Shown here piece after piece: positions 6,361-62,354 of a stretch of 64,000 nucleotides of DNA (position 1 is the stretch's first letter; each line of letters begins with the position of its first letter). Position numbers and translations under genes: made by a program. The stretch is from Syntrophotalea acetylenivorans (GTDB lineage: Bacteria; Desulfobacterota; Desulfuromonadia; Desulfuromonadales; Syntrophotaleaceae), in NCBI RefSeq assembly GCF_001887775.1, contig NZ_CP015519.1, positions 930,001 to 994,000 of the forward strand, read 5' to 3'. The notes beneath the pieces are model-generated. The model did not search any database. It was not told the origin of the DNA and saw nothing but the letters and a program-made list of their open reading frames with translations.

Positions 6361-7175
6361 GGCAAGGCCTCCGTGACTACACCGGCCGGTGGTTGCAGGG
6401 TAAAATGGACAGCGGCAAGCTCGGGATTTAATTCAACATCGCTGTAGGCCAACGAAAAACTCGCCTCCTGCTCAGGTAGAGACACCGACACCTGCCGAGG
6501 GAACCCCTGCAGGTCGTTATCGAAACCGTCATAGGCCACTTTCAACAGCGGATTTTCGCCACGGAAATAGGTCGCCTTCAGTAGTCGGCCAGACAGATCA
6601 TACTCGAGCTGTTGGCGCCGGGTATCGGCACCATTCAACATCAATTGATAATTTTGTTCATGGCGGGTCAATACACTGTCACGATAGGCGATAAGCGGCA
6701 CGTCGTAGAGAGCCAGTCGCACCAGCTGTTCGGCCGTCAGCGCCGCGCGGGTAAAGCGGGCGATTCGCTCCGGCGTAGCAGCCCCTTGCAAAAAGCGGCC
6801 TTCCCTCGGCAGCGAAATTTTCAACTCACCATCAAGAGCAGCCAGTAGCAACAGCGGTTGCCCGAAGGGGCCGAGCACTTCGGATCGAATGTTGCCAGGT
6901 TTGGCCAGGAGCAAGACCTGCCGTGCGGAGACCGATCCCTTTGCATCTTTGGTGCGAATCCGCGCCATCCCGCGCAGGCTGTTAAAAGCCCGGGCGTTAG
7001 CTTGCAGGCGCTGCAACAACACCTGCTCATTCAACAGAGGCCGAGGAGGGACCGGGGCCGGTACGCAACTGGCCAAAAGAAAAACCATACTGGCAACCAG
7101 AAGCAAGCGATGGAGTGAAGATTGATTGAAGCGATAGTTTTTCCTGGTTGTTGGGTGCCAGAGCGAATCAATCAT
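6357..7175 (-). CDS. LolB-like / DUF4292-type outer-membrane lipoprotein
   Basis: A 272-residue protein with a signal segment LLLVASMVFLLASCVP. The cysteine at about residue 37 sits in a lipobox (LLASC), so the mature protein should be lipid-anchored. The body is a beta-rich domain with repeated amphipathic strands (SLRGMARIRTKDAKGSVSA, IRSEVLGPFGQPLLLLAA, VSVSLPEQEASFSLAYSDVE), the pattern of LolB-like lipoprotein carriers. It is made in an operon with a TPR protein upstream (eight-base overlap) and an ABC binding protein downstream. A role in envelope lipoprotein handling is inference. Confidence 0.65.
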   Translation of the reverse strand: MIDSLWHPTTRKNYRFNQSSLHRLLLVASMVFLLASCVPAPVPPRPLLNEQVLLQRLQANARAFNSLRGMARIRTKDAKGSVSARQVLLLAKPGNIRSEVLGPFGQPLLLLAALDGELKISLPREGRFLQGAATPERIARFTRAALTAEQLVRLALYDVPLIAYRDSVLTRHEQNYQLMLNGADTRRQQLEYDLSGRLLKATYFRGENPLLKVAYDGFDNDLQGFPRQVSVSLPEQEASFSLAYSDVELNPELAAVHFTLQPPAGVVTEALP

Positions 7176-25406: not shown

Positions 25407-25789
25407 CTCCGTACTCCTCCCTTCACTATGATTATTTGTAGAACCTCATAAGAGTTTATCAGATTACGGTTCCTCTAAAAACCGGCACGAACTCCTGAGT
25501 ATAATTCGTTGTTGCTGCAAACGGCCCATTTCAACCCTATAATCTTTCTCAACAATACTATTCTAACATCTTGATTTGCCGTGAACTTTACCCAATACTT
25601 AAATCAGCTTCTATGTCGATTTCTGCAAGCCAAAGTACAAACATAAATAACACCGAAACTAACGGGGGAAATTCCATCCCGACTTCTATTGTCCGCCCGA
25701 ACAACCGTACAGCATTTCCCTACTTCCTCTCCGAACGTCTGACAATTAGCCGGAAAAGGCAGCACGCCGGGAGGAGGTTCCCCCACAAC
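25407..25789. other. non-coding gap at the edge of the rearranged region
   Basis: Upstream of the Mos-like fragment no convincing gene is seen. An open plus-strand frame continues from 25571 into the fragment, but its first 75 codons have no recognisable family and look like non-coding sequence. Confidence 0.4.
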
Positions 25790-26024
25790 AAAGGCCTGCT
25801 GAAATCCCATTCCCACATCAAGCCCATCCGTCTGATCCCCGCCCTGCACATCATCAAGATCGGCGGTCATGGCGTCATGGATTACGGCCGCGAGGTGGTG
25901 GTACCGCTGGTAGAAGAAATCGGTGAAGCTTCAAAAGACCACAAACTACTGATTGTAACCGGGGGTGGAGGGCGGGTGGGGTATATCCTCGATATCGGTG
26001 TTGAACTCGGTATGGCCGCTGCCC
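25790..26024 (+). pseudogene. molybdenum-storage-protein-like kinase fragment, 3' truncated
   Basis: About 78 codons match the N-terminal part of molybdenum storage protein subunits, which belong to the amino acid kinase/UMP kinase fold. The key blocks are LHIIKIGGHGVMDYGREVV (first strand and glycine-rich nucleotide loop) and DHKLLIVTGGGGRVGYILD. The homology stops at about 26020, where the end of recJ begins on the other strand; the rest of the fold (about 190 residues) is missing. No credible start is seen upstream. It is a remnant left by a rearrangement. Confidence 0.65.
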
Positions 26025-26025
26025 G

Positions 26026-27480
26026 TTACAGAACCGACTCGACGGCACGGAGGTCTTTTACTTTGAGCTGCACGGAACTTCGGCCGCGCCATTCGTTGAT
26101 ACCCGGGGTGAAGAGCAGGTCGAATTCCCCGGCCAGCTCATCAATCCGCTCTGCCATGCCGAAGGCAATACAGGCCTGACTGTAACCACCCTGAAGGGCG
26201 GTAAAACGCAGATGCTTATCCCCAAGAATCTGTACCTGTTGAGCGCGTAGCTGGCGAGCCACCAACAGCGGCTGAGGGTTACCGACACCGAAAGGGGCCA
26301 AGCGCTCTAGCTCGGCCACCGTCTGTGGTGTCAATTCTTCAAGGAGCACCTCCTGATCAAACAGATGGCGCGGTTGTAGCTGATCGTTACTCAGTTCTTT
26401 TTCCGCCACCGTCTCGAAGGTGCTGGCGAAGGCATCGATATTGTCGGCAGGGATCGATAAACCTGCGGCGAATTCATGGCCTCCATAGGCGCTCAGATGC
26501 TGCTGAGAATCGTGCAACGCTCGATAGAGGTGAAAACCGCGAATTGAGCGGGCCGACCCCTTGCCAATGCCATTTTCAACGGCTATGAGCACCGTCGGCC
26601 GGTAAAAACGTTCCACCAGACGACTGGCAACGATGCCGATGACTCCCGAGTGCCATTCGGGGTCGGCGAGGACGATACTGCGCTGCGCCGGATCATACGT
26701 CTCCGCAAGTTGCTCCAGAGCCTGTTCCAGGGTTTGCTGTTCGATCATTTGGCGCTGGCGATTACAGTCGTCGAGTTGCCGGGCACTCTCCAAGGCCTTG
26801 ACCGGGGAAGCCTCAAGGAGCAGGCCTACTCCCTGAGCAGCATCCTGCAAGCGACCGGCGGCGTTTAAGCGAGGGGCCAGTCGAAAACCGACGCTGCCGC
26901 AATTGACCTCTTTGACATCGGCGACTTCTCTTAATGCGGCGATCCCCGGCCGTTGCCCCTGATTCAGTACTGTCAGGCCGGCTTTGACCAGAATCCGGTT
27001 GAGTCCGTTTAAGGGAGCGATATCGGCGATGGTGCCGAGAGCCACCAAATCGAGGCTGCACCGCAGGTCCGGTTCGGGACGATCCTGAAACCAGCCCTTT
27101 TGCCGCAGGCGACTGCGCAGGGCCACCAACAGCATAAAAGCCACCCCGACGCCCGCCAGACCCTTGTCGGGAAAGGCACAGTCCGGCCGGTGCGGGTTGA
27201 TGACCGCCAGGGCTTCCGGAAGCTGTTCGGGAGGCTGGTGGTGATCGGTGATGATCAGGTCGAGACCGAGTTTTTTGGCCAGGCGAGCTTCCTTATGAGC
27301 CGACACCCCGCAATCGACAGACACCGCCACCTTGGCACCACTGTCCGCAGCCCGTTGCAGAGCTTCGCCGGAAAGACCATATCCATCCACCAGTCGCAAT
27401 GGAATATAGTAGTCTACAGGCGCTCCAAAAGAACGTAAATTCTCCACCAGCAAGGCGCTGGCGGTGATGCCATCCACATC
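26026..27480 (-). pseudogene. recJ: 5'-truncated recJ, single-strand exonuclease
   Basis: An open frame of 484 codons covers most of RecJ. The DHH motif (LIITDHHQPPEQLP), the DHHA1 domain (GGHEFAAGLSIPADN) and the C-terminal OB region are present to a natural stop at 26026. At the 5' end, motif I begins in the middle: codons for DVDGITAS are preceded directly by an in-frame TAA at 27481-27483, so the first 80 or so residues and part of the metal-binding DYDVDG are lost. The only start left is the GTG of that motif. RecJ is an essential-grade 5'-3' DNase of recombination and repair, so an intact copy may exist elsewhere. Confidence 0.75.
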
Positions 27481-27574
27481 TTATTATACAACCCCTTTTT
27501 TTAAAAAAATTCACTTGGTGAGGGAGATTGCCCCCAATAGATCCTACAAGTTTGTTGCAAGAGGGATCTCTGCT

Positions 27575-28189
27575 TCATGGAGTGGACGTTGGCACTTGAT
27601 TTATTAATAGCGCGGCACGAGCATCAGCAATCATTGCCCGATAGAAATCAAGGCACATTTTGCCAGCAACAACCGGATGCATTTCCCCTGCCTCGTTCCC
27701 CAGATGCCTGCTGGGTGGGTTAAATTTTTTCCCGCGATTTACAATACGAACCAAACGAACATCACTGGGAAGTACTTTGGTGTCATATGACAAGAAATGA
27801 TCCAGGGTCTCGATATCAATCACCAAGGTCCCATCTCTCACCTCAATATTTACCTTGTCGAGTTGAAATGGGCGACCAATCTTGTCTGAAATAATAACCT
27901 TAAAAGATTTATCCAAAGTCCCGGTGATTGAGTGTGTTTCAGCATTTCTGGCCTGCTTTATATATACCAGTAATGGGTCCTTGTTTATAAGCCTTTTGTA
28001 TGGCTTGTACCACTGCTGAAAACCCTTAAGTTTCTGGAGCTTCTTCCGCGTTACTTCACACGTGCGGACAATACGGTAAAGGTAATTCTGCCAAGCCTCC
28101 AAAAAGGCAGAGAACTTGGTTGTATTGGCCATTTCTTCAAGAAGTCTCTCTGCTATATCCAGGTCTGTATCTGAAGCTTTCAGGAGCAC
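27575..28189 (-). CDS. HEPN-motif protein of the E1/E2/JAMM operon
   Basis: A 204-residue protein I cannot assign to a named family. Residues about 1-95 are predicted mainly helical and end in YIKQARNAETHS. R81-N82-x3-H86 fits the R-x4-6-H motif, with a polar residue after the arginine, of HEPN ribonucleases, which are common toxins and defence effectors. Residues about 96-160 look like beta strands (KVIISDKIGRPFQLDKVNIEV as two adjoining pieces KVIISDKIG and RPFQLDKVNIEV). A GTG start at 28189 has AAGGAT six bases upstream. It is the last gene of the operon, 66 bases after the JAMM gene. RNase activity is inference. Confidence 0.7.
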   Translation of the reverse strand: MLLKASDTDLDIAERLLEEMANTTKFSAFLEAWQNYLYRIVRTCEVTRKKLQKLKGFQQWYKPYKRLINKDPLLVYIKQARNAETHSITGTLDKSFKVIISDKIGRPFQLDKVNIEVRDGTLVIDIETLDHFLSYDTKVLPSDVRLVRIVNRGKKFNPPSRHLGNEAGEMHPVVAGKMCLDFYRAMIADARAALLINQVPTSTP

Positions 28190-28255: not shown

Positions 28256-28747
28256 CTAAAAGACTTTAATCCCCAAAGGGAAATATTCCCATTGGGGCCA
28301 AAAGACGGTGCTCACCACTCTTTGGGTACGCCATGCCCGAGGCGACCATTTTTCACCTCCACTACTCTCACCCAAAATAATCATAACCGGACGGTCCATG
28401 TAATTCCGAGGTTCCCGTGCAATATTCCGCAAGGCACGCCTATCAATCCAACTCAAATGTGCCGTCGCGCTAGGGTGAGTGTGCCAGTCCCCCAAATAAG
28501 AGATTAGGCCATTGCTTTTTTCGTAAATTTTACCGATTTCATCACGATGAAACTTATAATCTGGTCGGTAAGTCGACCTTCGGTGTTTAGCATTGGGACC
28601 AGGCCCAACTATTTCGGTGATCACCACTTCATCATCATCGATCGAACAATAGCCAGCTAGAATCCCCCCTGTCTCCAATGGATATTTAGCATCAGCTTCC
28701 AGCGTCATCCGATCAAAAACAGACCGCTCAATCCACACACTATTCAT
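28256..28747 (-). CDS. JAMM/JAB metallo-isopeptidase
   Basis: A 163-residue JAB-domain protein. With the ATG at 28747 as start, Glu25 lies in LETGGILAGY and the zinc site is DWHTHPSATAHLSWID: His89 and His91 (HxH), Ser99 and Asp102, an exact H-x-H-x7-S-x2-D. In eukaryotes and bacteria such enzymes remove ubiquitin-like tags or process their tails. The frame also extends to a TTG at 28762, inside the E1 gene; either way the start is within two bases of, or overlaps, the E2-E1 stop. It should reverse or mature conjugates made by that enzyme. Confidence 0.92.
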   Translation of the reverse strand: MNSVWIERSVFDRMTLEADAKYPLETGGILAGYCSIDDDEVVITEIVGPGPNAKHRRSTYRPDYKFHRDEIGKIYEKSNGLISYLGDWHTHPSATAHLSWIDRRALRNIAREPRNYMDRPVMIILGESSGGEKWSPRAWRTQRVVSTVFWPQWEYFPLGIKVF

Positions 28748-28749
28748 GC

Positions 28750-30528
28750 TCAGCAAGTACAATCAGGATGTTTAACCAATTTACATGTCTGCCATTCGGG
28801 GAAAGTGCCCTTTTTATCTCTTCGCAGCGATAGGATTCCTATATCATCCACCATTGCAGGATACGCAAACTGTTCCCCTTCGCATAAAGTGGAAACAGCC
28901 ATGCGGACACCGGCAAGAGCAATTTCTTCTACGTCAAAGCCAGCAGCCGTAAAAGTCACATCGCCACAACCTGCAGATTGCACATCGTCTCCCAAGGGAT
29001 CATAAGGCGGCGGCTCAATGATGCCTTCTTCATCGTCAAGAGCATAAAGGTAGCAACAATAACACCCCTCCGAATCAGGCTTAACGCGAACAACGTTCCC
29101 GCCCCACCCTCCTGCACGAGAAGAAACCGTAACATACGGGATTTGAAAAGCCTTAGCCAAGTCGCATAGAAGATGATTTATTCCTTCTTCAGCCGTTGCA
29201 TCATAAATAAGATCAGCACCTTCAAATAGCTTTTCAAGAACCTCCATCTGATCTACACCGGATAGACTCTCTCCAAGCTTTAAACGAAAGTCGGCTCCCA
29301 CATTTGGGGGATAATGACCTGTTCCTATTTGTGTAAAAGGGAAATTTCCCCCGATAAATTCTTGGAGCGCCTTGACCTTTCCTTCCCCTGCCACGGAAAG
29401 CCCTAAAGGCCAACGGCACGTTGTGCCGGGGCTGACAAAATCACCATCTAACAGCCTCAATTCTCCGATTCCTGCACGTGCCAATGCCAGAACACTCGGA
29501 GCTCCAACACACCCAAGCCCAACAACAGCAACTGTCTTGTGCCGCAATGGGCTTAATTCTGGAATGCGTTCAAAAAGATCCTTCTCTCCTGCCGGTTCAG
29601 CTTTTACCACCCATCGTGTTGTTTGTTGTTGTCGATGAGCCCGCTTTCGTCCTTTCCCTTTGCGTTTATGCTCCAGGCACGATGCAATAAAAAGCCAACC
29701 ATCTCTAACCCCTCCGTCGGGGTCTTCTTCAGGAAAACACAAGCCATATAACCCGCAATTGGTGCGACTCAATTGCTGCCAGGTCTTAGGATACTGGCCA
29801 CGAAGATATTCCATGAGTTCAACAATGTTGCTGGCTTGGGGTGGTTCATCCAGTCTTGCCCAAAGACAATCTGCAAGCTTATACCCCTGAGCGTTAACCC
29901 ATGATTCGATGTTTCCGCTAACCTTTGCCCCTTCAATACTTTTTTTCTGGGAAGTCTGGACTTCCAGCACCCAAGCGACAAACCTGTCCTGGGTTGTTAT
30001 GCTTCTGAGTCCATCTTGCAAAGCAATCTTCATCCAACCCCATCGATCAGCGGAAGGTAGCCTCCACGCTGAGTCCATTATCACTAAGGACCCAGTAGGA
30101 TGCTCGGGAAAATAAACGCTAAATGGTTCCGCTTGGCGATCTTCAGTTGCTAAACGGGAATCTTCATGCTTTAGAATTGCCGCCTGTTCCCATTCTGGCA
30201 ACATCTCTTGAATTAGAGATAATGCCGTCATGTTAGGTTGCCAGTGCTGGGTCCCCCGTTTAAGAAGGCAAACTTCTCCAGAGAGAGGATTGTAATGACG
30301 CAGGCTGAAACCTAACCCGGGGACATAAACGGTTGGGCGAAAGTATGGATAAAGATCGGGGTATCGAATGAATCCTTCTCGCTGCTCGCCTAATATTTCC
30401 AAGCGAATAGCCATTTCAAGGATACCCTCAGAACGGGATTCTTCAATTATATTCGGTTGCATGTCGGCGGCTGCAAGGCGAGTCACCTCCTCTTGCAGCA
30501 CGCCGTCATACCGATCCCACCATGCCAT
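28750..30528 (-). CDS. E2-E1 fusion ubiquitin-like conjugation enzyme
   Basis: A 592-residue fusion like CBASS Cap2. Residues about 1-120 are a bacterial E2-like domain: RHYNPLSGEVCLLKRGTQHW has the His-Asn...Cys pattern with Cys87 as the likely catalytic residue, followed by W-x-P and a leucine-rich helix. Residues about 330-560 are a ThiF/E1 adenylation domain: VAVVGLGCVGAPSV is the nucleotide loop and LLDGDFVSPGTTCRWPLG the following strand. Cysteines at 490-492 and 521 (SAGCGD) may bind zinc or act as E1 cysteine. The ATG at 30528 overlaps the stop of the peptide gene (TAATG). Confidence 0.92.
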   Translation of the reverse strand: MAWWDRYDGVLQEEVTRLAAADMQPNIIEESRSEGILEMAIRLEILGEQREGFIRYPDLYPYFRPTVYVPGLGFSLRHYNPLSGEVCLLKRGTQHWQPNMTALSLIQEMLPEWEQAAILKHEDSRLATEDRQAEPFSVYFPEHPTGSLVIMDSAWRLPSADRWGWMKIALQDGLRSITTQDRFVAWVLEVQTSQKKSIEGAKVSGNIESWVNAQGYKLADCLWARLDEPPQASNIVELMEYLRGQYPKTWQQLSRTNCGLYGLCFPEEDPDGGVRDGWLFIASCLEHKRKGKGRKRAHRQQQTTRWVVKAEPAGEKDLFERIPELSPLRHKTVAVVGLGCVGAPSVLALARAGIGELRLLDGDFVSPGTTCRWPLGLSVAGEGKVKALQEFIGGNFPFTQIGTGHYPPNVGADFRLKLGESLSGVDQMEVLEKLFEGADLIYDATAEEGINHLLCDLAKAFQIPYVTVSSRAGGWGGNVVRVKPDSEGCYCCYLYALDDEEGIIEPPPYDPLGDDVQSAGCGDVTFTAAGFDVEEIALAGVRMAVSTLCEGEQFAYPAMVDDIGILSLRRDKKGTFPEWQTCKLVKHPDCTC

Positions 30529-60775: not shown

Positions 60776-60853
60776 ATGAAAAGGTCACGTTTTACCGATA
60801 GCCAGATTGCGTTTGCGCTTCTGCAGGCTGACATGACCTCCCCCCCCAAATAG
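60776..60853 (+). pseudogene. IS3-type orfA fragment, cut after 19 codons
   Basis: A start MKRSRFTDSQIAFALLQAD resembles the beginning of the orfA at 60914 (MKKTKFTDEQIAFALKQAE) but differs at many bases, so it is another IS3-family member. It stops being similar exactly where TGACCT and a run of C begin, the left end of the following IS element. Confidence 0.65.
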
Positions 60854-60913
60854 GACGAGTCAAAACTGAAATTTTCGGGCAAAATGACCCTTTGGGAGAG
60901 GAGACGTTTTGCC

Positions 60914-61180
60914 ATGAAGAAAACAAAATTCACCGATGAACAGATCGCGTTTGCGCTCAAGCAGGCAGAGCCAGGCACCAAGGTGGCTGAAGTTTGCCGG
61001 AAGATGGGTATCTCGGAAGCCACTTTCTACAGTTGGAAGAAGAAGTACGGCGGCCTTGGTGTCAGCGAACTGCGGCGGCTGAAGCAGCTTGAAGAAGAGA
61101 ATCCGCAGCTCAAGAAGCTGGTAGCCGACCTGAGCCTCGACAAGCAGATGCTGCAGGATGTGCTGTCAAAAAAGTTCTAA
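60914..61180 (+). CDS. IS3-family transposase OrfA
   Basis: An 88-residue DNA-binding subunit with a helix-turn-helix (VAEVCRKMGISEATFYSWKK) and a leucine-zipper-like region (LRRLKQLEEENPQLKKLVA). The ATG at 60914 follows a GGAG-like site. Near its end the codons A-AAA-AAG at 61168-61174 form the classic slippery heptamer that lets ribosomes move to the -1 frame and make the OrfAB transposase. Confidence 0.92.
   Translation: MKKTKFTDEQIAFALKQAEPGTKVAEVCRKMGISEATFYSWKKKYGGLGVSELRRLKQLEEENPQLKKLVADLSLDKQMLQDVLSKKF
61168..61174 (+). promoter_or_regulatory. programmed -1 frameshift site (A6G)
   Basis: A AAA AAG in the orfA reading frame, six codons before the orfA stop. The -1 frame is open from here into orfB. 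Confidence 0.85.
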
Positions 61181-61203
61181 AACCAGCCCAAAAGAGCCGC
61201 CAG

Positions 61204-62049
61204 GTGGATAGACTTGAACTGGCCTATCGTATTGGCAAACGCAGGGCCTGTGAGGTCGTGGGCCTGCAACGCTCGGTCTACTACTCGGTCTACTACTATA
61301 AATCGGTCAAGGATGATAGGGTTCTTCAGCAGCGTATCTGTGAGATTGCCGCGACCCGGATTCGTTACGGCTATTTGCGGATCCATGTGCTTTTAAGACG
61401 TGAGGGCTGGCACGTCAACCATAAGCGCGTCCATCGAATTTATTGTGAAGAAGGCCTGAACCTGCGACACAAAAGACCGAGGCGCCGCGTGGCGGCAGCC
61501 CATCGGGTGCAGCGGCCCGAAGTCTCTAAGATCGATCAGTACTGGTCCATGGATTTTGTGGCCGACAACTTGTTTAATGGCCGCCGAATCAGGGTCTTAA
61601 CTGTCGTCGATAATTTGAGTCGTGAATGCCTCGCCATCCATGTGGATCGGGCAATTAAGGGGAAGCATATCGTTCAGGCCATGGAGAGGCTACGCCTTTT
61701 TACGGATCGCTGCCCTGAAAGGATTCAGGTCGACAACGGCTCGGAATTCATTTCCAAGGATCTGGATAAGTGGGCGTACGAAAACGGAGTCACTCTCGAC
61801 TTCTCCAGGCCGGGAAAACCGACAGATAACGCTTTGATTGAGTCGTTCAACGGAAGCTTTCGCGATGAATGCCTCAACACCAACTGGTTTCTTTCAATTG
61901 ACGATGCCAAGAAAAAGGTCGATGCTTGGCGGAGAGATTATAATGGGTTTCGCCCGCATTCATCGCTGGGAAATTTAACCCCGGCACAGTTCCGGGAACA
62001 ACACGGAAGCCCGAAATCCCTACATTTGGTCTGTCCAGGTTACGGGTGA
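61204..62049 (+). CDS. IS3-family transposase OrfB (DDE integrase)
   Basis: A 281-residue integrase-like subunit. The DDE triad is visible in QYWSMDFVADNLFNGR, RIQVDNGSEFISK and ALIESFNGSFRDECL. It is in the -1 frame of orfA and is likely made as a fusion; a GTG at 61204 is the first possible internal start. A 12-base tandem duplication (TCGGTCTACTAC twice, about 61274-61297) adds four residues (SVYY repeated) to the N-terminal part, next to a region that is otherwise conserved; its effect is unknown. Confidence 0.92.
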   Translation: MDRLELAYRIGKRRACEVVGLQRSVYYSVYYYKSVKDDRVLQQRICEIAATRIRYGYLRIHVLLRREGWHVNHKRVHRIYCEEGLNLRHKRPRRRVAAAHRVQRPEVSKIDQYWSMDFVADNLFNGRRIRVLTVVDNLSRECLAIHVDRAIKGKHIVQAMERLRLFTDRCPERIQVDNGSEFISKDLDKWAYENGVTLDFSRPGKPTDNALIESFNGSFRDECLNTNWFLSIDDAKKKVDAWRRDYNGFRPHSSLGNLTPAQFREQHGSPKSLHLVCPGYG

Positions 62050-62354
62050 GGCTCACCCTGGCGTTACCCCCAGCCTAGTTTTGAGCGAACTGTGTGGTAT
62101 TTATGTTCCCAGTTTGAGCTATCTTCGCATTATGAGTTCTTTGAAACCTATCCCCAAAAAAATTGAATGCAATTGGCGCTGCCTGCGAATTCCTTCAACT
62201 CACCCTTTATCAGATACAGAAAAGGGGTGTTTTGGCTGAGAGGTAAATTTCTTGCACCGAGCTATTACACTGTTAAAATTCAAGGGTTATGACCTAGAGA
62301 AAATAAAAAACCTGTCCCAGAGTCTCAGTGAGGTCGGTCCGCAGGAGGATATAA
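62050..62354. other. gap after the IS element
   Basis: About 300 bases of A+T-rich sequence between orfB and the second ATPase. It should contain the right IS end and the ATPase promoter; neither could be placed. No MerR-type long-spacer promoter is obvious. Confidence 0.4.

Follow-up and report, generated by a model that had tools for sequence, protein, structure and literature searches.

The recJ gene of Syntrophotalea acetylenivorans is split in two by an insertion of 108,295 bp (C1:957481-1065775) that carries, within a recombinase operon at one of its ends, a complete and divergent RecJ of its own. Judging from sequence comparisons, we take this insertion to be a site-specific multi-recombinase island, of the GInt/SE/Tn554-like kind, that broke the host gene, with the carried RecJ most likely taking over its function, and we give this reading a probability of roughly 0.8. 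The window that we analysed is the whole stretch of 64,000 nucleotides (G000:C1:930001-994000) taken from the 3.22-Mb, one-contig genome of this bacterium (G000 in our numbering of genomes); it holds the part of the element from 27481 to 64000, which continues beyond the window to C1:1065775.

The host recJ is cut within motif I

The recJ frame of the window (26026-27477, minus strand; TIGR00644) is the 3' part of the host gene, 483 codons that begin inside motif I, the N-terminal ca. 90 residues being absent. In a profile search it covered positions 66-546 of the 546 of TIGR00644 (63-546 when read from the junction). The junction reads GTA TAA TAA GAT GTG GAT GGC, i.e., motif I (DVDG) stands directly after in-frame stops, both of which derive from the end of the element. 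The initial annotation had described a recJ broken within this motif behind an in-frame TAA, and both observations hold, with two stops in place of one. The missing N-terminal part (TIGR00644 2-65) is found in the same single-contig genome at C1:1065776-1065967 (minus strand), on the same strand as the other half, colinear with it and 108 kb away. A search of the genome with TIGR00644 (E up to 10) recovered three places, namely these two fragments (63-546 and 2-65) and a full-length divergent RecJ. An intact recJ elsewhere in the genome, for which the initial annotation had suggested a search, is thus there only as this divergent protein, the host gene itself being present as two pieces.

On either outer side, upstream of the N-terminal piece (where a SecF-like gene can be read) and downstream of the C-terminal one, the sequence aligns with the corresponding flank of the intact recJ of relatives, and in three congeners (G001, G002 and G004) the gene runs uninterrupted across the break point. 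Since the halves lie on one strand, in order, and with flanks that match those of the intact relatives, we conclude that recJ was one gene split by an insertion. The host recJ fragments show pairwise dN/dS values of 0.05-0.11 and no visible decay, which fits a recent insertion and gives no sign of lost function.

The ends of the island and a separate deletion beside recJ

The operon-distal junction lies inside the window. The 6-bp core found there (27475..27480, GATGTG on the minus strand) is host sequence, identical in the intact recJ of G001, G002 and G004, and it is adjoined by the right terminal inverted repeat TTATTATACAACCCC (27481..27495, plus strand), identical at 12 of 15 positions to the repeat of the other end, TTATGCTACAATCCC (C1:1065761-1065775, read inwards). 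Read on the recJ strand, the upstream half of the gene ends in GATTACGATGT, followed by TTTATGCTACAATCCC, and on the downstream side GGGGTTGTATAATAA is followed by GATGTGGATGG; at the break point the intact relatives read GA(T/C)TA(C/T)GATGTGGACGG. The cores of this insertion are then GATGTT on the operon side and GATGTG on the distal side. The G+C content is 0.515 inside the element versus 0.535 (left) and 0.544 (right) outside, a weak contrast.

The initial annotation had seen here either an island edge or a multi-step rearrangement. The edge is real, as 27480/27481 is one end of the 108-kb insertion, and several steps are unnecessary to explain it; two are needed only because the breakpoint on the other side of recJ is a separate small deletion. 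There, the reported fragment of a Mos-like amino-acid-kinase gene is indeed present (25789..26017, plus strand) and has lost its 3' end (PF00696, E=2e-6 for the ORF that holds the remnant). Window 25789-26017 is 81% identical to positions 6404-6632 of the G002 locus L047, and the similarity resumes within recJ at window 26054, equivalent to L047 8868, so that about 2.2 kb are missing beside recJ. The Mos gene of G002 itself reads as two overlapping frames. No element features were seen at this ca. 2.2-kb deletion, and the breakpoint is ruled out as the other island end, being a local loss relative to G002.

The same base is broken in a second species

In G003, a 67%-complete draft genome of the same genus, recJ is broken at the same base as in G000, next to a similar element end. 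A separate contig of this draft codes for a carried RecJ and the last recombinase and contains a partial helicase gene, and we infer that both contigs belong to one insertion; the N-terminal piece of recJ was sought in the draft and not found. A relative with the same short RecJ had been put forward as evidence against a break. Here it speaks instead for a recurrent site-specific insertion, because the G003 fragment and the intact G002 gene share 96% identity (dS 0.12) and the carried RecJ on the other contig is like that of G000. Between G000 and G003 the host recJ has a dS of 1.28 versus only 0.39-0.57 for three element genes. These values, together with the closeness of the G003 fragment to the intact G002 gene, are best fitted by two apparently independent insertions of related elements at one base, the alternatives for a shared break being loss from G002 or transfer between species.

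The recombinase operon

At its far end, outside the window, the element has an operon of seven genes on one strand (C1:1054552-1065696), which overlap or stand up to 30 bp apart and start 79 bp inside the element. The encoded proteins are, in order, 615, 814, 223, 133, 855 (RecD2-like), 595 (RecJ) and 454 aa long, and read as a recombinase-like protein, a large recombinase, a coiled coil, the 133-aa protein, a helicase, RecJ and a recombinase. Several of the family matches are weak: the 615-aa protein matches Phage_integrase with E=0.0018, below the cut-off, the helicase reaches 242.1 bits against an NCBIfam RecD2 equivalog cut-off of 500, and the 454-aa protein has a weak XerA-like match. In the large recombinase, the columns R428, H558, R561 and Y595 (numbering of the protein of the element studied here) are invariant in 9/9 aligned sequences, an alignment that leaves out G159 (see below). 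The last recombinase has R188, H297, R300, H337 and Y346 (PM1 numbering) invariant in 4/4 aligned sequences, two of which are 84% identical to each other. The catalytic R, H-x-x-R and Y columns are those invariant in the large recombinases and in the aligned last-gene recombinases. In the first protein of the operon the late H and Y are kept in 3/3 sequences, and by eye no arginine was seen at the expected first position.

Related operons that have no RecJ are found on plasmids of Methylibium petroleiphilum PM1 (629-719-212-413 aa) and Alteromonas mediterranea (579-745-192-143-731-425 aa), with recombinases 23-27% and a helicase 29% identical to those of G000 in BLAST. These two were the only matches when the large recombinase of the G000 element was used as query. 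With a profile of the large recombinase, 5 of the 277 class genomes gave a match (6 with a nine-row profile), and among 395 genomes of the phylum, searched by sequence and profile, only G000 itself did (1/395). A three-row alignment of this protein, run against the genome-contig collection, gave two weak patterns and no confirmed relative. The 615-aa protein gave little or nothing against the plasmid, viral and genome collections and, at E<=1e-10, only its own genome among the 277 of the class; the 454-aa recombinase was found in 3/277 and led to G022. The large recombinase of G022 matched little or nothing among phages.

The carried RecJ

The RecJ of the operon (C1:1055949-1057631, minus strand) is complete, with 595 aa, and lies ca. 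98 kb from the recJ break in the window. It scores 354 bits (355.5 elsewhere in our analysis) with TIGR00644, against a cut-off of 396.9, has its DHH, DHHA1 and OB domains (PF01368, PF02272, PF17768) all above cut-off, and keeps intact the six motifs that we inspected, including DHDLDG and DHH. It is only ca. 30-31% identical to the host RecJ, and the dN/dS between the carried copies of G000 and G003 is 0.095. In a tree, both fall into one group (supports 0.996-1.0) together with two plasmid RecJs and that of G018, and 25 host RecJs stand outside it. Against viral contigs the carried RecJ gave little or nothing.

A lineage of plasmid-borne RecJs (records H4-H23; Dyella, Rhodanobacter, Xanthomonas, Piscirickettsia) is 36-39% identical to the carried one among the best 20 of 128 matches, and the plasmids in these best 20 are ca. 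90-310 kb in size. We inspected two of the plasmid loci, 9 kb to each side: both have HU near the gene, one also RusA and the second RdgC, and the recombinase operon was not found within that distance. In G018 the native recJ locus, with a SecF-like gene as its neighbour, has a RecJ of the mobile type that is 54% identical to the carried one (L051 9269-11137, minus strand), and a search of this genome with TIGR00644 found no other, canonical RecJ. This may be a completed gene swap, but a gene replaced by some other route would leave the same picture.

Other broken genes with a carried counterpart

Including the two described above, we collected 11 loci with such operons, in G000, G003, G022, G091, G159, G175 and G225 and on plasmids of Methylibium, Alteromonas (two near-identical records counted once), Rhodovastum and Azospirillum. 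The target could be resolved in eight of the 11, corresponding to seven target genes, and all eight islands carry either a homologue of it (seven) or a probable enzyme of the same pathway (one). For the remaining operons, those of G225 (L088/L089) and of the Rhodovastum (L090) and Azospirillum (L105) plasmids, targets were sought and none identified.

In the one-contig genome G175 the gene is recQ, with 27.7 kb between its halves and a carried 625-aa RecQ that is 67% and 63% identical to them. In G022 it is efp (C16:113522-113770 and 96954-97272), and the carried EF-P is 82%, 70% and 77% identical to three matched pieces. Further copies of the broken gene were sought for recJ in G000 and for efp in G022; the latter keeps an intact EF-P paralogue, 36% identical to the carried protein, so that the broken efp may not have been critical. 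G091 has pfkA cut at GGGDCP/GLNA and carries a Pfk that is 49% identical. On the Alteromonas plasmid the last 22 residues of nrdB are cut off; the carried NrdB is 78% identical to the truncated copy and also matches the C-terminal piece (45% over 48 residues, E=1e-4). The one carried gene without homology to its target is that of the Methylibium plasmid, where the pieces of dcd (TIGR02274 1-113 and 106-179) lie 41 kb apart and a dCMP-deaminase-family protein (PF00383) adjoins the last recombinase. It is not homologous to dCTP deaminase and its best NCBIfam matches (anti-phage dCTP deaminase and ComEB) are below cut-off; a function equal to that of dcd is thus putative. The last case, G159, came up only once the idea was in place and was a fair test of it. 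Its broken gene codes for an M48 CAAX protease (114033-114641 and 146284-147012), and the carried 411-aa protein is 66% identical to the C-terminal and 47% to the N-terminal piece. The operon of G159, however, is a distant relative (profile E=5e-9), with a large recombinase that matches that of G091 at E=4e-5 in BLAST and two other genes in recombinase position without a match in the set compared.

The cores at these junctions are GGCATC/GGGATC in Methylibium, GTCCAG on both sides in G091 and GAAATA/GAAATT in Alteromonas, where no terminal repeat is evident; the junctions of G022, G175 and G159 showed little similarity when compared for 6-bp cores. The operon-side core departs from the host sequence in G000, as judged against the relatives, and in G022 and G175, as judged by coding sense, and for Methylibium and Alteromonas the native core could be the one or the other. 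We also considered that the carried gene might be immune to insertion through a changed att. The core does differ in the carried recJ and pfk, but it is identical in the carried recQ and nearly so in efp, and this idea found no support.

When the targets and cargoes of five elements were compared (E<=1e-3), a carried gene turned up in no element other than its own, so that the matrix is diagonal. As controls we took flanking ORFs, called mechanically with a minimum length of 100 aa (168 from six loci and 38 from G159), with a match threshold of E<=1e-10 (and 40% coverage for the six-locus set). Only two matched their own element and both are, or overlap, target fragments, which leaves 0/204 non-target flanking ORFs with a homologue in their own element, versus 6/7 targets. 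Nine flanking ORFs of the six-locus set matched another element, eight of them the 108-kb one, and thus common families do give matches. The difference corresponds to a Fisher p of 6e-11, which is nominal, because it was the duplicate that drew attention to the targets of G175, Alteromonas and G159 (and partly to those of G022 and G091), and because three loci are outside the resolved set. With only the targets that came from the flanks or from a target-family search (recJ, pfkA and dcd, 2/3 with a homologue), p is 1.4e-4, with the caveat that the pfk pair had already surfaced, unrecognised, in an earlier comparison.

Cargo of the 108-kb element

The element holds 94 ORFs of 100 aa or more. 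The end-most gene (27575..28189, minus strand; 204 aa) has no family match in the libraries tried, and the part nearest the end is conserved in G003. It is followed by a JAB-type isopeptidase (28256..28762, minus strand; PF14464, E=2e-13; JAB in PADLOC) and an E1-like (ThiF) protein (28750..30528, minus strand) with PF00899 at residues 326-498, PADLOC E1-E2 models within ca. 286-573 and a longer N-terminal part without a match. The conjugation operon that the initial annotation placed beyond the island edge is therefore not one of DNA conjugation; these are genes of the ubiquitin-like conjugation type. The distal cargo differs between the two species, with the JAB and E1-like pair in G000 versus CD-NTase, E1-E2 and JAB (type II CBASS genes) in G003.

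In a second defence cluster of the element (C1:1032392-1037715), CBASS genes for a CD-NTase and a SAVED-type effector adjoin one for a WYL-domain protein. There is also a second mnmA together with two genes that read as cysteine desulfurases (C1:1008906-1013176), the native mnmA being intact at C1:922872-923888. From window 36624-64000 and on to ca. C1:1051000 the cargo looks rich in genes for handling metals (P-type ATPases, RND pumps, ArsA-like and FeoB-like proteins), calls that were made by reading the sequences, with one ArsR-type regulator tested by search. By reading, window 60834-62056 looks like an IS3-type element; next to its carried operon, G003 has one with 93% identity to it (L046 5457-6671).

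A probable break-and-replace mechanism and its alternatives

We infer that insertion is the work of the operon's recombinases, that the broken gene no longer functions and that the carried protein works in its host. The recombinases would recognise a short site within the codons of a nearly invariant motif, and a circular element would insert there and leave a donor-derived 6-bp core at the operon side; the host gene would die and the carried gene would take over. A conserved site would give a wide host range, and replacement would make insertion cheap and loss expensive. The arrangement would thus let the island land in highly conserved coding sequence while making its loss costly, and the host cell probably comes to depend on it.

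The carried RecJ, standing beside a RecD2-like helicase, might instead assist the element in its own recombination or replication, in which case the match of RecJ to the broken gene would be coincidental. The identity of only ca. 30% to the host RecJ and the occurrence of the mobile type on plasmids, at the two inspected loci away from this operon, allow such a role, and the gene does sit between helicase and last recombinase in a tight operon. However, Alteromonas, G022 and G091 lack a RecJ at that place of their homologous operons, which do encode a related helicase (29-31% identity), and their elements carry NrdB, EF-P and Pfk, each matching the gene broken by that very element, as in the diagonal of the matrix. 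We hence regard an accessory role with a chance match as improbable.

Somewhat less probable still is an origin of the carried genes by capture from a host, through imprecise excision or by chance, followed by neutral retention without selection for replacement. They do lie near the operon or the distal end, and the EF-P copy is 70-82% identical to the broken host pieces, but the carried genes are complete and diverged (30-82% identity), the one of PM1 is not even homologous, the carried RecJ has a low dN/dS and the mobile RecJs form a clade of their own. As for an assembly chimaera or plain rearrangement that split recJ, the broken frame taken alone would agree with it, but a one-contig genome, colinear halves, the same junction base in a second species and defined inverted repeats make it very improbable, and a chimaera was rejected on the single contig and the recurrence in G003. 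Decay of recJ through an IS or transposon was likewise rejected, given the defined ends and colinear halves. Break-and-replace by a site-specific island is the reading that we keep.

Comparison with known elements

Multi-recombinase islands are known in outline. The closest precedent is Tn552-II, a Tn554-type transposon with tnpABC, which in the available text is described as inserting inside a gene, carrying a "target-gene-like" (tgl) gene, a homologue of the broken one for which rescue is suggested, and bringing in a short att of 7 bp (PMC12486829). The islands described here share with it the homologue of the interrupted gene, as RecJ in G000 and G003 and at five further targets. However, Tn552-II is given there as 9 kb long, with three tnp genes and a YolD-like chromosomal target plus a homologous plasmid one (PMC12486829), whereas the present islands have 16-108 kb, a different and longer operon and seven unrelated housekeeping targets.

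Like our islands, GInts are reported to have several recombinases and a small protein at one end, large cargo and imperfect flanking repeats (PMC5385486). The large recombinase of G022 is distantly related to the third gene of GInt-like operons (25-27% identity; 27% for the pCAR3 operon, E=1e-18), and that of G000 matched only the Methylibium and Alteromonas plasmids. The ginABCD order described for them, three integrases and then one small protein, differs from that found here, where a helicase (plus RecJ) is inserted. According to their authors, insertion of a GInt probably does not fully inactivate the target, being intergenic or at gene ends (PMC5385486, as far as its accessible text goes), unlike the present islands, which cut conserved motifs and carry a replacement. 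SEs, strand-biased circularizing integrative elements reported only from Gammaproteobacteria, with a median of 15.7 kb, resemble our islands in their proteins (two RHRY recombinases, one more that is recombinase-like, and a small one) and in their ends, with imperfect terminal inverted repeats and a 6-bp footprint (PMC10214605, from the sections available). G000 has just such a 6-bp core (GATGTG/GATGTT) and imperfect repeat (12/15), but its operon departs from the published order intA-tfp-intB-srap, and the accessible part of PMC10214605 mentions no replacement gene. The operon-side core also resembles the 6- or 7-bp att that is "brought in" by SEs (PMC10214605) and Tn554-type elements (PMC12486829), as these sources describe it in the text available. 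Within the literature searched, Tn552-II (PMC12486829) was the only precedent found for a target-replacing element, an absence of others that means little since subscription papers were mostly outside the search. Within the same limits, what appears to be new is the generality, i.e., related operons, seven unrelated targets and sizes from 16 to 108 kb.

What the islands may mean for their hosts

Integrative elements are mostly thought to avoid harm to their hosts by using tRNA genes, gene ends or intergenic sites. The related operons studied here cut the middle or a conserved end motif of recJ, recQ, nrdB, efp, pfkA, dcd and an M48 protease gene, and a stand-in is carried along. The pattern would extend to many targets the sole published hint that we found, the tgl gene of Tn552-II as described in the accessible text, and it provides a rule for finding such islands: a split core gene with a full-length cousin between its halves. 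It could also account for some of the puzzling cases in which a distant homologue has replaced a core gene. Break-and-replace suggests a general way to landing sites shared by a wide range of hosts and to stable maintenance. We are inclined to think, with less assurance than for the fate of recJ itself, that dispersed "gene-swapping" islands hold housekeeping genes hostage and so tie the fitness of the host to their defence and metal-resistance cargo, and that the swap can become permanent.
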